A stretch of 44,670 bases of DNA from Candidatus Nanosalinarum sp. J07AB56. Lineage in GTDB: Archaea; Nanohalarchaeota; Nanosalinia; Nanosalinales; Nanosalinaceae. The notes beneath the pieces were generated by a model. It was not told the DNA's origin. It searched no databases and worked only from the letters and a program-made list of their open reading frames with translations. Numbering within the stretch: position 1 is the first letter of the stretch; each line of letters begins with the position of its first letter. A program made the translations under genes and the position numbers. Positions 18,590 to 23,112 of this stretch are shown piece by piece. The DNA is taken from assembly GCA_000220355.1 (NCBI GenBank), contig GL982569.1, positions 895,568 through 940,237 of the forward strand, given 5' to 3'.

Positions 18590-19636
18590 GTGCAGGAGAA
18601 ACAGTTCGTACAACAGGGAATACGCCGCGTCAACCTCGATGACTTCCTAGCGAAGGAGCTCGAGGGATCCGGCTACGCCGGAAGCACAATCGAGCGAACC
18701 CCGACATCAACAAAGATAGTGATCACAGCGGAGAAACCCGGCCTGATCATCGGACGCGGGGGATCGCGTATCAGAGAGCTTACCTCCGACGTGGAGGACG
18801 AGTTCGGTTTCGAAGACCCGCAGATAGAGGTCAACGAGATAGAGGAACCGGACTCGAACGCCCAGGTCGTCGCCAACAACATGGCGGAGTGGCTTGAGAA
18901 GGGAGGAAGTGCCAAGCGCGTGGGCTACACGTACCTGCGCAGGGTCCGCGAAACCGGTGTCATAGGAGCACAGATAGAAGTATCGGGCAAACTGTCAGGC
19001 AACCGGGGTCGCACCGAGAAGTTCTCCTTTGGCTACGTGAAGAGATGCGGCGACACCGCCGACGAGCAGGTGGACCGGGGTTACCGCCTCGCGAGAACCA
19101 AGCCCGGTGCGATCGGAGTAAAGGTACGCATTATGGACTCGATGCCCGAGTTCATGCACCAAGACACCGACCTCGCGGAGAGAATCAGACACGAGTCCGA
19201 AGAAGGTACGGAGGACGAACAGGCAGATAAGATCAACCGTATCATAGAAGAGGCAGAGAACATGACAGGTGCCGAGATAGGCCGCGCCATAGAACAGCTT
19301 GAGGACGTGCAGGAAGCGGAGATAGAGGTCGACGAGGTAAGGGATGTCTACGAGAACCGCGACACGGACGAGGGAGGCGATGATACCGCAGAGGACAGTG
19401 AGGAGCAGAAGAACTCTGAGTCGGATGCGACCGAGGACGAGTCCGGAGGCGAGCAGCCCGACCAGACCGAAAGCGACAACACTGACTACGCTTCCATAGT
19501 ATCGGGCACGATAGCGGACGCGAAGGATGAACTGGACGCACTCGAAACCCCGGACTACGGAGCCGCATTGGAAGCAGAAAGCTCCGGCAAAGACAGGGTC
19601 ACGTTCGTGGAGTGGCTAGAGGAGAGGTCTGAATGA
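18590..19636 (+). CDS. rps3: Small ribosomal subunit protein uS3 with acidic linker and extra C-terminal domain
   Basis: 348 residues from GTG 18590, much longer than the roughly 210-240 of ordinary archaeal uS3. The start gives QEKQFVQQGIRRVNLDDFL, matching family N-termini; an in-frame TTG at 18536 lies inside uL22 and is rejected. The KH motif IGRGGSRI is near residue 62, and the mRNA-entry KH/C-terminal domain runs to about residue 215. Then comes an Asp/Glu/Ser-rich linker of about 45 residues and a final 50-residue segment (19484-19633) that is 27/50 identical, without gaps, to the end of uL24. uS3 shapes the mRNA entry channel; the role of the tail is unknown. Confidence 0.93.
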   Translation: MQEKQFVQQGIRRVNLDDFLAKELEGSGYAGSTIERTPTSTKIVITAEKPGLIIGRGGSRIRELTSDVEDEFGFEDPQIEVNEIEEPDSNAQVVANNMAEWLEKGGSAKRVGYTYLRRVRETGVIGAQIEVSGKLSGNRGRTEKFSFGYVKRCGDTADEQVDRGYRLARTKPGAIGVKVRIMDSMPEFMHQDTDLAERIRHESEEGTEDEQADKINRIIEEAENMTGAEIGRAIEQLEDVQEAEIEVDEVRDVYENRDTDEGGDDTAEDSEEQKNSESDATEDESGGEQPDQTESDNTDYASIVSGTIADAKDELDALETPDYGAALEAESSGKDRVTFVEWLEERSE

Positions 19637-19830
19637 GTATTCTCTCGTCCGATGAGGCCCGTGACATGGACAGCGACGAGCTGAAGAGACAGATGAACGA
19701 CCTCAAGAAGGAGCTCGTCGAGGAGCGCGGTCAGATAGAGGTCGGCGGGTTCGCGGAGAACCCAGGTAGAATCGGAGAAATCAAGAAGACTGTAGCCCGT
19801 ATAAAGACAGAGCTCAACGACCGCGAATAG
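19633..19830 (+). CDS. rpl29: Large ribosomal subunit protein uL29
   Basis: 65 residues, a two-helix protein. It shows MDSDELKRQMNDLKKELVEER and ENPGRIGEIKKTVARIKTEL, the canonical coiled pair. uL29 lies beside uL23 at the tunnel exit. Its ATG overlaps the uS3 stop by four bases. Confidence 0.93.
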   Translation: MSILSSDEARDMDSDELKRQMNDLKKELVEERGQIEVGGFAENPGRIGEIKKTVARIKTELNDRE

Positions 19831-19836
19831 ATACGA

Positions 19837-20142
19837 ATGTCGATAGACCCCAACGACGACCTTCCCGAAGAATTCTCAGCACAGGATCAAATCGCGCGAT
19901 CCGAACAGAACATAGAGGTGAAACTGGACTCCAGAACCTACGACAAGGAGATGACCGTTGTCGACAACCTAGGCGACGAAATCGACCTCGACGACCTCTC
20001 CTCCACACTCAAATCCAACCTGGCGTGTGGAGGAACCGTCAAGGAAGGTCACATCGAGCTGCAGGGAAACCACACACGCCGCATAGAGGATGTGCTGGTG
20101 GACGAAGGCTTCGAACGTGGCAACATACAGGTTCACCGTTAG
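19837..20142 (+). CDS. Translation initiation factor eIF1 / SUI1 family
   Basis: 101 residues. The SUI1 fold pattern is visible: KEMTVVDNL, then LSSTLKSNLACGGTVKEGHIELQGNH, ending VLVDEGFERGNIQVH. Archaeal aIF1 binds the 30S P-site region and enforces start-codon fidelity. Between uL29 and uS17 most archaea carry eIF1 followed by the RNase P protein Rpp29; here eIF1 is present and Rpp29 is missing. After this gene the operon is broken by a reverse-strand protease gene. Confidence 0.93.
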   Translation: MSIDPNDDLPEEFSAQDQIARSEQNIEVKLDSRTYDKEMTVVDNLGDEIDLDDLSSTLKSNLACGGTVKEGHIELQGNHTRRIEDVLVDEGFERGNIQVHR

Positions 20143-20170
20143 AGCCGCAAACCTCGGCCTCCGACCAACG

Positions 20171-20920
20171 TCAACCGTACATATCCTTCACGGTCGACTC
20201 GCACACTTCCCGCCACCGTTCATTTGGAAGCGTCGGTAGATCGCCGATACCTATTTCTCCCGACTGTGTCACGCACCTCACAACTTGGTACGCGATTCTG
20301 TAGCCTTCCGCCCAACGGTATCGGTCGCCTCCTGTCAGGAACAGCTGTTTACTGAGATTGACGCCCTCGGAGTCCTTCCAGCACCTCCTCTGTTCGAGGT
20401 CTATCAGTAGCTGTTCCGTGTCAACCTGTGGTCGCTCGCTGGTTCTCTCTGGTGTCGACCACGAGTAGCTCTTCTTGTTGTTGACGCGTTCAGCGAAGTT
20501 CATCGCGTGGCCCTCGAACCGGAGGTTGAAGTACTGCGATCTGGTGGGGTCGAAACCCGTCTGGCACCAGGCTTGGTGGCCGATCTCATGGTTCACCATA
20601 TCCTTCAGTGCAGCTCTCCAGTAGTCCACCTCTGTTGTCGCCCTGATGAAAATCTGATCCTCCTCGCTGCCGCGCATTCCCTCAACGGCCGAGAAACCCA
20701 TGAATGAGTTGCCGGGATGTGCCTCTTGGGGGTCGAATCCGGAGGTATCGGTCTCCGCGAGGTTCACGGCGAAGTCAGTCTCTATTCCGAAGACTTCTTG
20801 ACAGTGCGCGATAGCCTTCTCTGCCTCGCTCTCCAGTTCGCTGTAGTTCTCCGGTTCCCTGTACATGCCGTCCGGAACTATGCTGGACATCTCCGCACGG
20901 TATGGACGTATCTCTACCAT
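20171..20920 (-). CDS. Putative Zn-dependent protease, DUF2268-like
   Basis: 249 residues with an HEIGH zinc motif at 111-115 within MVNHEIGHQAWCQTGF and a downstream RFEGHAMNFAERV helix (E136) that can supply the third metal ligand. The layout resembles DUF2268 predicted metalloproteases, known also from haloarchaea. There is no signal peptide or membrane helix, so it should be cytoplasmic. The ATG is at 20918-20920, about 25 bases from a reverse-strand TATA-like box. It sits alone on the minus strand inside the otherwise all-forward ribosomal operon, at the place where Rpp29 is normally found. Substrate unknown. Confidence 0.75.
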   Translation of the reverse strand: MVEIRPYRAEMSSIVPDGMYREPENYSELESEAEKAIAHCQEVFGIETDFAVNLAETDTSGFDPQEAHPGNSFMGFSAVEGMRGSEEDQIFIRATTEVDYWRAALKDMVNHEIGHQAWCQTGFDPTRSQYFNLRFEGHAMNFAERVNNKKSYSWSTPERTSERPQVDTEQLLIDLEQRRCWKDSEGVNLSKQLFLTGGDRYRWAEGYRIAYQVVRCVTQSGEIGIGDLPTLPNERWREVCESTVKDMYG

Positions 20921-20940
20921 GTTCCGAACAATGTAGTTTG

Positions 20941-20950
20941 ATCTTATGAC
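20941..20950 (-). promoter_or_regulatory. TATA box of the inserted protease gene
   Basis: On the minus strand GTCATAAGAT is centred about 25 bases upstream of the ATG ending at 20920, giving a leaderless transcript. Confidence 0.5.
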
Positions 20951-20985
20951 TGCACGTGGTTTTGGCGTTGTGACTGCCGAGCACC

Positions 20986-20994
20986 ATTATAAAG
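20986..20994 (+). promoter_or_regulatory. TATA box restarting the ribosomal operon at uS17
   Basis: ATTATAAAG is a strong forward TATA core 74-82 bases before the uS17 ATG at 21068. It implies a leader of roughly 50 bases and shows that the downstream spc genes have their own promoter after the protease insertion. Confidence 0.6.
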
Positions 20995-21067
20995 TTTGGA
21001 AGACCCCTTAACCAATACGCATCTACGTAGAGGTCTCGAAACACCTCTCAAGGTGCAGAACAGACAA

Positions 21068-21346
21068 ATGAAAGACATCAGAAATCAAGTGGATGGTGAG
21101 TATCCCCTAAGAGGGAAAGAGTTCGAAGGAACAGTTGTGTCCACGGCGATGGACAAGTCGTGTACCGTGAGATGGGAGCACACGGAACCAGCTCCAAAGT
21201 ACGAGAGATACGAAAGAAGAAATACCAAGGTATCAGCACATGTACCTGAGAGCGCCGAACTGGAAGAAGGCGACAGGGTCGTGGTATCGGAAACAAGACC
21301 CATATCCAAGACGAAGAGCCACATCGTCGTTGAGGTGGAGAACTAG
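21068..21346 (+). CDS. rps17: Small ribosomal subunit protein uS17
   Basis: 92 residues from ATG 21068. Family segments are PLRGKEFEGTVVSTAMDKS, KYERYERRNTKVSAHVP and the C-terminal TRPISKTKSHIVVEV. An upstream in-frame TTG at 20996 would add 24 residues with no uS17 similarity and lies too close to the TATA box. uS17 stabilises the 5' and central domains of 16S RNA. Its TAG shares a base with the uL14 GTG start. Confidence 0.94.
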   Translation: MKDIRNQVDGEYPLRGKEFEGTVVSTAMDKSCTVRWEHTEPAPKYERYERRNTKVSAHVPESAELEEGDRVVVSETRPISKTKSHIVVEVEN

Positions 21347-21744
21347 TGAAACCTGTAGGCGGAAGCATCACGAAAACGCTGGATCGCGGGGCGCAGCTCA
21401 CCTGTGCCGACAACTCCGGTGCAAAACAGCTGGAAATAATATCGGTCGACTCCACGAACTCACGCAGGGGAAGACGAGCCACCGCAGGCGTCGGCGACAA
21501 GGTGAGAGTCAAGGTACTGAGAGGCGATCAGGAGGTGAAGGGACAGGTACACCAGGCGGTTGTAGTACGCCAAGCCAAAGAATACAGACGCCCGACAGGT
21601 CTCAGAGTCGAGTTCGAGGACAACGCCGCGGTTCTCATCGAAGAGAACGGTCTTCCGAAGGGCAACGTCACTCGCGGACCAATAGCAAAAGAAGTAGTAG
21701 AGAGGTTCTCGGCTATCGGAAAGATAGCCTCCAAAGTCGTATGA
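21346..21744 (+). CDS. rpl14: Large ribosomal subunit protein uL14
   Basis: 132 residues, normal length. Core motifs: LTCADNSGAKQLEIISV, GVGDKVRVKVLRG, VVVRQAKEYRRPTG, and the C-terminal RGPIAKEVVERFSAIGKIAS. uL14 forms an intersubunit bridge. The GTG start at 21346 overlaps the uS17 stop by one base and uL24 starts in the last four bases. Confidence 0.96.
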   Translation: MKPVGGSITKTLDRGAQLTCADNSGAKQLEIISVDSTNSRRGRRATAGVGDKVRVKVLRGDQEVKGQVHQAVVVRQAKEYRRPTGLRVEFEDNAAVLIEENGLPKGNVTRGPIAKEVVERFSAIGKIASKVV

Positions 21745-22460
21745 AGTGGTCGAAGAGCTTCCAGTCAAGTTCCGACCCACAGAAACAGAGGCTCTACAGA
21801 CAGAACGCGCCGAACCACATCAAAGACCAATTTATCTCGTGCAACCTGTCACACACCCTCCGCTCGGAGCTCGACTCCCGCAACTTCAACTTGAGAACCG
21901 GTGACCGCGTGGAAGTAATGCGAGGGGACAGAACCGGCGCAGCTGGCATAGTGAACCGCATAGACAGAGACGAGGAGAAGGTCTACATAGATGGCATTGA
22001 AATCCAGAAGGTCAACGGCACCTCTGTCCAGAAGCCGTTCCGACCCTCAAACCTCCAGATAGTGGCCCTCAACCTCGACGATCCATCGAGAATTGAAGAA
22101 TACGGCGTAGATGAGCTGGACGACGTGAGGGTCTCCGAAGAAGAGGTCGAAGAGGCACTGGAAGAGGAGGAAGAAGGCGACATGATGCAGCAGATGCAGA
22201 CCGGTGAATCCAGCATAGCCCCGGACACCTCTGCGGAAGACGAGATGGAAGGCGAGGATGAACCCGACGAAACCGAGTCGGAAGAAGAAAACCAAAGAAA
22301 GACTACCGACTACGAGGCCGTTGTAGACGGCACGATAGCAGATGCGAAGGAACAGCTTGGTGAGATGGAAGACGTGGACTACGATGAACTACTTGAGGCA
22401 GAGAAAGAAGGTAAAGACCGCAAAACATTCAAACAGTGGATAGAGAGCCAGACTGAATGA
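21741..22460 (+). CDS. rpl24: Large ribosomal subunit protein uL24 with acidic linker and extra C-terminal domain
   Basis: 239 residues, about twice the usual archaeal uL24 length. The KOW core is clear: NLRTGDRVEVMRGDRTGAAG, then KVYIDGIEIQKVNGT and PFRPSNLQIVALNLDD. After residue about 125 comes an extremely Glu/Asp-rich linker and a final 50-residue segment (22308-22457) nearly the same as the one ending uS3. uL24 starts 50S assembly and lies by the tunnel exit. The ATG at 21741 overlaps the uL14 stop; the gene in turn overlaps eS4. Confidence 0.93.
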   Translation: MKWSKSFQSSSDPQKQRLYRQNAPNHIKDQFISCNLSHTLRSELDSRNFNLRTGDRVEVMRGDRTGAAGIVNRIDRDEEKVYIDGIEIQKVNGTSVQKPFRPSNLQIVALNLDDPSRIEEYGVDELDDVRVSEEEVEEALEEEEEGDMMQQMQTGESSIAPDTSAEDEMEGEDEPDETESEEENQRKTTDYEAVVDGTIADAKEQLGEMEDVDYDELLEAEKEGKDRKTFKQWIESQTE

Positions 22461-23112
22461 CTCACCGCGGCAGGCTTGCGGCACCGCGACACTATCCGAT
22501 CTCGAGGAAGGAAACCAGCTACGTACACAATATGGAGGGATCACGCTCACCAGAGCAGGCGGTGCCTGTGTCGATAGTCCTGCGTGACATGCTGGGGTAC
22601 GCCGACAGTGAATCAGAGGCAAAAGAAATCGTACAGAACAACGGAGTGCTTCGCAATGGACAGCCGCTTTCGAGCATCAAACAGGGCGTTGCAGTTCTTG
22701 ACGTTGTTACGCTCTCTGAAGGAGACACCGGTTTCAGGGCCTTGCGCCGCAGCGACAGATTCGAGCTGGTGGAAACCGAGGACACTCGTAGATTGCGAAG
22801 ATAACAGATAAGCGTGATACCGGCAAGGGCTACGCTTACGCCCTCCACACCGGAGAAAACTATTATTCGAAGGATGACTTCGAAACCGGTTCGACACTTA
22901 TCTTCGATCAGGACTCCCTCGACCAGTCGGTAGAAATGAGGCAGAACGAGCGAGTCGTCGCTATAGACGGGGGGCACGCAGGAAAAGTGGGTGAGCTCCA
23001 AGACGTACAGTTCAACGGTAGGAGGCCGGATGAGGCGCGTTTCTCTGCGGGCGACAAAGAGTTCACTACCCGTCTCGAGAACCTGGTTGCGACAGGAGGT
23101 GTCGACCTGTGA
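22457..23112 (+). CDS. rps4e: Small ribosomal subunit protein eS4, broken by one missing base
   Basis: The first frame (to a TAA at 22802-22804) encodes the S4-like N-terminal half: RLAAPRHYPISRKET, VSIVLRDMLGYADSE and the GQPLSSIKQGVAVLDVV strand. The second half is in another frame from about 22798 to the TGA at 23110-23112: KGYAYALHTGENYYSKDDF, then a KOW-like IDGGHAGKVGEL, as in archaeal eS4. Adding one A in the CGAAGATA stretch joins the halves into a 218-residue protein of ordinary length. It is archaeal and eukaryotic specific and binds near the 16S 5' domain. The order uL24-eS4-uL5 is canonical. Confidence 0.88.
22794..22801 (+). other. Frameshift point in eS4 (one base missing)
   Basis: The codons CGA AGA TAA stop the first half; CGA AAG ATA ACA would continue into the conserved second half. 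A missing A is the simplest correction. Confidence 0.8.

Follow-up and report, generated by a model that had tools for sequence, protein, structure and literature searches.

Lineage-specific tails on ribosomal proteins are common. A comparable described case lies in Mycoplasma pneumoniae, whose flexible extensions include that of the NusA C terminus, which contacts the ribosome (PMC8116511); it too is a lineage-specific flexible tail on the gene-expression machinery, yet it is the extension of one protein, whereas the tails considered here carry one folded domain on many proteins. In extreme halophiles, a survey of S10-spc proteins that includes a nanohaloarchaeon concerns their net charge (PMC8672879). 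Analyzing 44,670 nucleotides of Candidatus Nanosalinarum sp. J07AB56 (assembly GCA_000220355.1, contig GL982569.1, positions 895,568 to 940,237 of the forward strand; "the window" below is this whole stretch), we found that ribosomal proteins uS3 and uL24 end in one homologous module. The same module sits at the termini of further ribosomal proteins, of RNA polymerase and of membrane proteins, is limited in its taxonomic spread and has been copied between ribosomal protein genes within a genome. It constitutes a previously unnamed domain family, without a Pfam or NCBIfam model above cut-off. The two genes of the window and their parts are as follows.

18590..19636, + strand: uS3 gene, 348 residues from a GTG start; NF003219 (1.9e-71), PF00189 and PF07650
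19199..19483, + strand: uS3 linker, a conserved helical stretch first and a strongly acidic, hydrophobic-poor segment directly before the module
19226-19270, + strand: the conserved helical stretch of the uS3 linker, DKINRIIEEAENMTG
19484..19633, + strand: uS3 C-terminal module, 50 residues, 27 of the 50 identical to the uL24 tail
21741..22460, + strand: uL24 gene, 239 residues; TIGR01080 (3.3e-28) and PF16906
22104..22307, + strand: uL24 acidic linker, 46% Asp/Glu over 65 residues
22176-22211, + strand: second conserved motif, GDMMQQMQTGES, within the linker that joins the uL24 core to its module
22308..22457, + strand: uL24 C-terminal module, 50 residues, matching the module profile at 7.5e-29

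The cores of both proteins are ordinary archaeal ones. uS3 scored 240 bits with NF003219 (cut-off 147) and uL24 98.4 bits with TIGR01080 (cut-off 47.65), each qualifying as the archaeal equivalog; uS3 also matched TIGR01008 (5.3e-63), and its start was chosen by comparison with orthologues, which begin at the homologous MQEKQF. An earlier reading of these letters, made without database searches (the sequence-only reading), had proposed that two unrelated ribosomal proteins of different subunits share a tail foreign to both cores, and this proved correct: the core profiles of uS3 and uL24 stop short of the tail, and the tails align without gaps over 50 residues with exactly the 27 identities it had counted, at a BLOSUM62 local score of 148 against a maximum of 59 in 20,000 shuffles. 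The Asp/Glu-rich linkers that it described are likewise present, with 44% Asp/Glu and 6% hydrophobic residues in the last 36 positions ahead of the uS3 module and the 46% listed above for uL24. The motif of the uL24 linker, of the pattern MMQQMQ[TS]GES, recurs in uL24 of related genomes.

The sequence-only reading had advised looking for the tail in other proteins of this genome and in other nanohaloarchaea. A whole-genome search with the uS3 tail revealed six clear copies in the source genome: on uS3, on uL24, at the C terminus of eS24 (recognized by PF01282; 73% identical to the uS3 tail), at the N terminus of a membrane protein (45%), and at the C termini of a coiled-coil protein (44%) and of a protein with two transmembrane helices (36%). 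A profile built from the source-genome copies (A1) recovered the module from 27 of the 28 Nanohaloarchaeota genomes searched, with up to 11 copies each and E-values down to 1e-26 in other genomes; the 28th (G001) yielded a single marginal match, to its uS3 tail (E 0.005). About 150 copies were fetched and read, and since some matches were left unfetched the host counts are lower bounds. Among the 27 genomes the module is carried by uS3 in at least 21, eS24 in at least 20, uL24 in at least 17, eL31 in at least 10, RNA polymerase subunit A'' in at least 6 and uL10 in at least 2, as well as by a single-transmembrane protein with an N-terminal module in at least 19 and a two-transmembrane protein with a C-terminal module in at least 11; the eL31, eL32, uL10 and A'' hosts were assigned by recognition of the core sequence and cross-matching to seeds, without a curated profile. 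The pairing of uS3 with uL24 therefore stands but was drawn too narrowly, as at least seven ribosomal or RNA polymerase proteins are hosts. Rarer hosts include a winged-helix coiled-coil protein, a bacterial-PH/zinc-ribbon protein, a protein with a chemoreceptor signalling domain (PF00015, 8e-46), a lipoyl acyltransferase (PF00198, 6e-91), an integrase, a membrane-bound DsbA-like thiol oxidoreductase (L121; PF13462, 2.2e-21) and, in several genomes, a soluble protein of about 500 residues with two N-terminal modules, possibly a soluble adaptor. By our reading of their sequences, a KaiC-like ATPase and archaellum FlaD/E-like coiled-coil proteins, the latter without a convincing Pfam match, appear to belong here as well. 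The hosts are unrelated to one another and are mostly large surface-exposed assemblies or membrane proteins; in one genome (G008) both uS3 and A'' bear the module as a tandem pair.

Several hosts have features of their own. The two-module proteins (L050, L059, L068, L080, L115, L119, L123) possess a conserved C-terminal domain that has no Pfam match. uL10 of G026 and G027 (L083, L158) ends in the module; the factor-binding tail typical of the archaeal stalk base was not seen there. The winged-helix coiled-coil carrier of the source genome (L005, 1492-2399, - strand) is read as two overlapping open reading frames (ORFs) in different frames and is apparently frameshifted. Seven consecutive X residues (from N bases) occur in L044 of G000, a two-module locus that may be a chimeric scaffold.

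The module comprises about 48 residues and lies at the protein terminus behind a variable linker, with 0-5 residues beyond it in nearly all C-terminal hosts. The linker measures 0-140 residues across hosts and differs in charge: most Nanohaloarchaeota have acidic linkers, G005-G007 a mixture of Lys and Glu, and uS3 of G218 and G286 a Lys-rich one. Structure prediction, another step advised by the sequence-only reading, was carried out by AlphaFold with 93 modules and returned helices at residues 5-9, 13-22, 28-37 and 42-52 with a mean predicted local distance difference test score (pLDDT) of 95.3, a confident prediction of an autonomous four-helix domain. Every aligned copy has E35 and R41; K17 and K39 each occur in 88% and T43 in 84%. 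Given that these residues are conserved while the length and charge of the linker vary, we concluded that the conserved element is the module and not the acidic linker. Profile match, invariant E35 and R41 and terminal position together mark the copies as one shared module, in which Asp/Glu averages 28% and Lys/Arg 15%. In the single-transmembrane carriers, 42 N-x-S/T sites lie beyond the membrane helix where 13.5 are expected, which supports an outside position for that domain and a cytoplasmic one for the module. The two-transmembrane carrier consists of little besides its membrane anchor and the module.

Across 297 archaeal genomes, which include nearly all of the 28 Nanohaloarchaeota, matches were found in 34 (search A2) or 40 (search A3), several of the additional genomes matching at chance level. 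Hence the tail is not a general property of archaeal uS3 and uL24; had it been one, the sequence-only reading would by its own terms have been refuted. Outside the Nanohaloarchaeota the module occurs on uS3, eS24 and eL31 in family f9 (one genome also carries it on an archaellum-like protein), on uS3, eL31 and eL32 in f131, on uS3 in f122 and f81, on uS3 and an archaellum-like protein in one genome of f39, and on A'', eL32 and one uS3 in f17. Being the commonest host across these lineages, uS3 may be the oldest one. Weak outside matches in G098, G107, G117, G158, G165, G192 and G263 (E 0.0006-0.008) and those in G259 and G419 were treated as chance. In some of the outside hosts C2H2-type zinc fingers stand between core and module (L124, L163, L169, L175, L170, L171), two in eL31 of f9 and one in uS3 of f122.

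Comparison of the tails within and between genomes showed that ribosomal tails of one genome resemble each other beyond expectation: likeness of uS3 and eS24 tails was 0.611 in the same genome and 0.572 across genera (permutation p 0.001), and a same-genome excess was also obtained for uS3-uL24 (p 0.005) and eS24-uL24 (p 0.005). A clear case is G015. Its uS3 and eS24 copies, which are unlinked, use the same codon at 40 of 42 identical residues where 18 would be expected, and their DNA is 86% identical over 200 bases, indicating that one was probably copied recently onto the other. The uS3 and eS24 tails of the source genome, with RVTFVEWLEER in common, are sisters in the tree with a Shimodaira-Hasegawa-like approximate likelihood ratio test (SH-aLRT) value of 96; their codons are the same at 16 of 35 positions against 14.4 expected, and sister tails without a codon excess point to older copying or to coevolution at the protein level. 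In the tree, which rests on few columns, the uS3 and eS24 tails of this family group with each other, and tails of like hosts cluster (31 changes of host label against 76.7 when labels are shuffled). In this family, after the invariant Arg, tails of uL24, eL31 and uL10 read R-K-T and most of those of uS3 and eS24 R-T/A/V-T, with exceptions that include uS3 of G010, G011, G017, G026 and G027; this difference may mark subunit-specific partners.

Searches of known families returned no domain of fixed function; a match to such a domain was the second outcome that would have told against the sequence-only reading. When hosts, tails and the 93 modules were scanned against Pfam and NCBIfam, no family reached cut-off for the module, and Foldseek against PDB (criterion E <0.001) gave no fold match, its best E being 2.9 with a template modelling (TM) score of at most 0.44. 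The best hit of PDB sequence searches (E 0.16) was rejected as chance. The open-access literature that we searched holds neither a description of the module nor a function for it on ribosomes, as the sequence-only reading had supposed. The nearest putative relatives are uncharacterized proteins of tailed viruses, namely HCTV-1 gp106, HVTV-1 gp113, HSTV-2 gp66 and Arthrobacter phage Mimi gp85 (PHROG 32688, 29632, 1983, 22690), with fair support for HCTV-1 and suggestive support for the others. Among 1109 viral ORFs the profile matched HCTV-1 (1.5e-6), HSTV-2 (4e-5) and Mimi (2.5e-4); hmmscan with PHROG 29632 and 32688 gave E-values of 3e-6 to 1e-4, and tblastn reached HCTV-1 at 3e-3. In a library of viral models the better matches had TM scores of 0.64-0.73 at Foldseek E-values that were not significant (at least 0.78). 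These relatives differ from the archaeal modules in their viral hosts and in sequence (similarity 20-49%). In the HSTV-2 protein (140 residues) an acidic linker again leads to a C-terminal module, as it does in many archaeal hosts; the Arthrobacter phage relative is a 90-residue protein. In the haloviruses HCTV-1 (gp106; L137, 2479-5619) and HVTV-1 (gp113; L139, 2682-5828) the relative lies in a protein of about 1046 residues whose gene follows that of the portal. tblastn of the modules in phages returned only haloviruses, one Arthrobacter phage group and chance matches, and in the plasmid collection nothing. A synthetic consensus made from an actinobacterial pattern likewise found nothing by tblastn in phages and plasmids, and that lead is unproven. 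A further lead, compared by profile, is the C-terminal part of the lipid-droplet-associated family LipDrop_Rv1109c (NF033649), which weakly matched the eS24 tail region (5.6e-5) and 10 of the 93 modules at 0.1 or better; at 23.3 bits against a cut-off of 110 the tail falls short of membership in this family, and the acidic linker may supply much of the match.

What the module does we can state only tentatively. Our preferred interpretation, to which we give somewhat less than an even chance, is that it serves as a protein docking tag linking ribosomes, and in some lineages RNA polymerase, to partners with a membrane end. Such a role would suit a compact folded domain that is held on flexible tethers at protein termini and recurs on unrelated large assemblies and on membrane proteins, and E35 and R41 are invariant although the charge of the linker shifts by lineage. 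We also count in its favor the cytoplasmic side of the module in the single-transmembrane carriers, the DsbA-like membrane carrier and the likeness of ribosomal tails within a genome. Joined by flexible linkers to the termini of uS3, eS24, uL24, eL31, uL10 and A'', copies of the module would bring ribosomes, and RNA polymerase, to common partners by protein-protein docking. The best candidates for the other end would be the membrane-anchored carriers, i.e. the small two-transmembrane anchor with its module and the single-transmembrane protein, whose module is placed in the cytoplasm and whose other domain lies outside; contact might be made between modules or through a common adaptor such as the two-module protein of about 500 residues. 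On the ribosome, uL24 and eL31 are positioned at the rim of the exit tunnel, and uS3 where mRNA enters; from there their tails could extend to a membrane carrier or to RNA polymerase. The tether to active ribosomes that the sequence-only reading had offered as one option agrees with the terminal position and host range and, like protein binding, a binding partner and a ribosome-membrane link, is something that we infer. That a single tag is displayed at the mRNA entry side, the small-subunit body, the exit-tunnel rim, the stalk and some RNA polymerases, with membrane proteins and adaptors joining the assembly, appears doubtful to us. Several results weigh against docking. The tandem pair was predicted as two separate modules without indication of self-association (predicted TM score 0.41; a weak test with four sequences). 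Modules of the single-transmembrane proteins show no covariation with ribosomal tails except those of eL31 (n=5, p 0.016, uncorrected for the number of pairs). The lipoyl acyltransferase, the KaiC-like ATPase and the integrase have no obvious tie to ribosome-membrane docking, and no membrane carriers were found, among the few copies examined, in other archaeal lineages with ribosomal modules. We regard the domain and its hosts as established, and docking as an inference.

A related explanation, unlikely in our estimate, is that one soluble regulator (of hibernation, quality control, chaperoning or modification) recognizes the module on ribosomes and on RNA polymerase, and that membrane carriers are targets of it and do not act as receptors. 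A recognition tag would fit the diverse hosts, the ribosomal tails coevolve or are homogenized, and multiple copies per ribosome would increase avidity; however, no candidate reader was identified, and no genome-wide co-occurrence test was run. We consider it quite unlikely that the module is instead a helical nucleic-acid-binding domain gripping mRNA or rRNA in the vicinity of uS3, of the exit site and of RNA polymerase. SAP and helix-extended-loop-helix domains are likewise small and have two helices joined by a basic loop, uS3 and RNA polymerase are among the hosts, and Lys/Arg are conserved around K39-R41. Yet the module has four predicted helices and no PDB fold match, it is on average richer in acidic than in basic residues, membrane proteins are numerous among its hosts, and the SAP match (PF02037) was confined to one of 93 modules at a marginal E-value (0.0021) and to none of the window's tails, which does not amount to membership.

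The second option of the sequence-only reading, halophilic assembly, is weakened by the lysine-rich or mixed linkers and by hosts such as RNA polymerase, the chemoreceptor-like protein, the lipoyl acyltransferase and membrane proteins, and we disfavor it. In its general form, with the tails aiding the solubility or assembly of ribosomal proteins at high salt and the module as a folding cap, it has in its favor the acidic linkers of the source genome and the acidity of S10-spc proteins throughout extreme halophiles (PMC8672879). We hold it to be very improbable, however, as the module is retained behind lysine-rich or mixed linkers (G218, G286, G005-G007), few ribosomal proteins carry it, most archaea lack it and E35 and R41 are invariant. 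The putative relatives in tailed viruses and the clear copying within G015 would suit a mobile, virus-derived segment spread by recombination and nearly neutral to its host; against this, invariant residues, retention of the module on orthologous uS3, eS24 and uL24 from different genera and the strong clustering by host argue for selection and leave little room for this explanation. Chance or low-complexity convergence, to which the biased composition of the linkers might have inclined one, is already refuted by the score far above every shuffle, the position of the module outside the acidic linker, the E-values to 1e-26 in other genomes and the pLDDT of 95.

We know of no case in which one folded domain is borne by proteins of both ribosomal subunits, by RNA polymerase and by membrane proteins, and, there being no system of this kind that we could name, we rate the family as new in kind; a stricter classification could treat it as a variant of lineage-specific ribosomal extensions. 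The module points to a principle by which translation is organized in archaeal cells that are among the smallest, and a peptide of 50 residues is a direct handle for finding partners. Copying between ribosomal protein genes makes domain homogenization visible across otherwise unrelated genes. Were the more doubtful single-tag assembly to exist, it would be a system tethering ribosomes to membranes or transcription to translation, for which we know of no cellular counterpart; docking to membranes or RNA polymerase would also make the poorly known spatial organization of archaeal gene expression testable.

Two other observations concern the window itself. An ORF of 249 residues with a HEIGHQxW motif, resembling zinc metalloproteases, occupies 20171-20920 on the - strand, antisense within the S10-spc operon between an apparent RNase P protein 1 gene and uS17. 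The eS4 gene is apparently split: its 5' ORF (22457-22804) stops early and the remainder continues in another frame, into 22936-23112, which suggests a frameshift or an assembly error.

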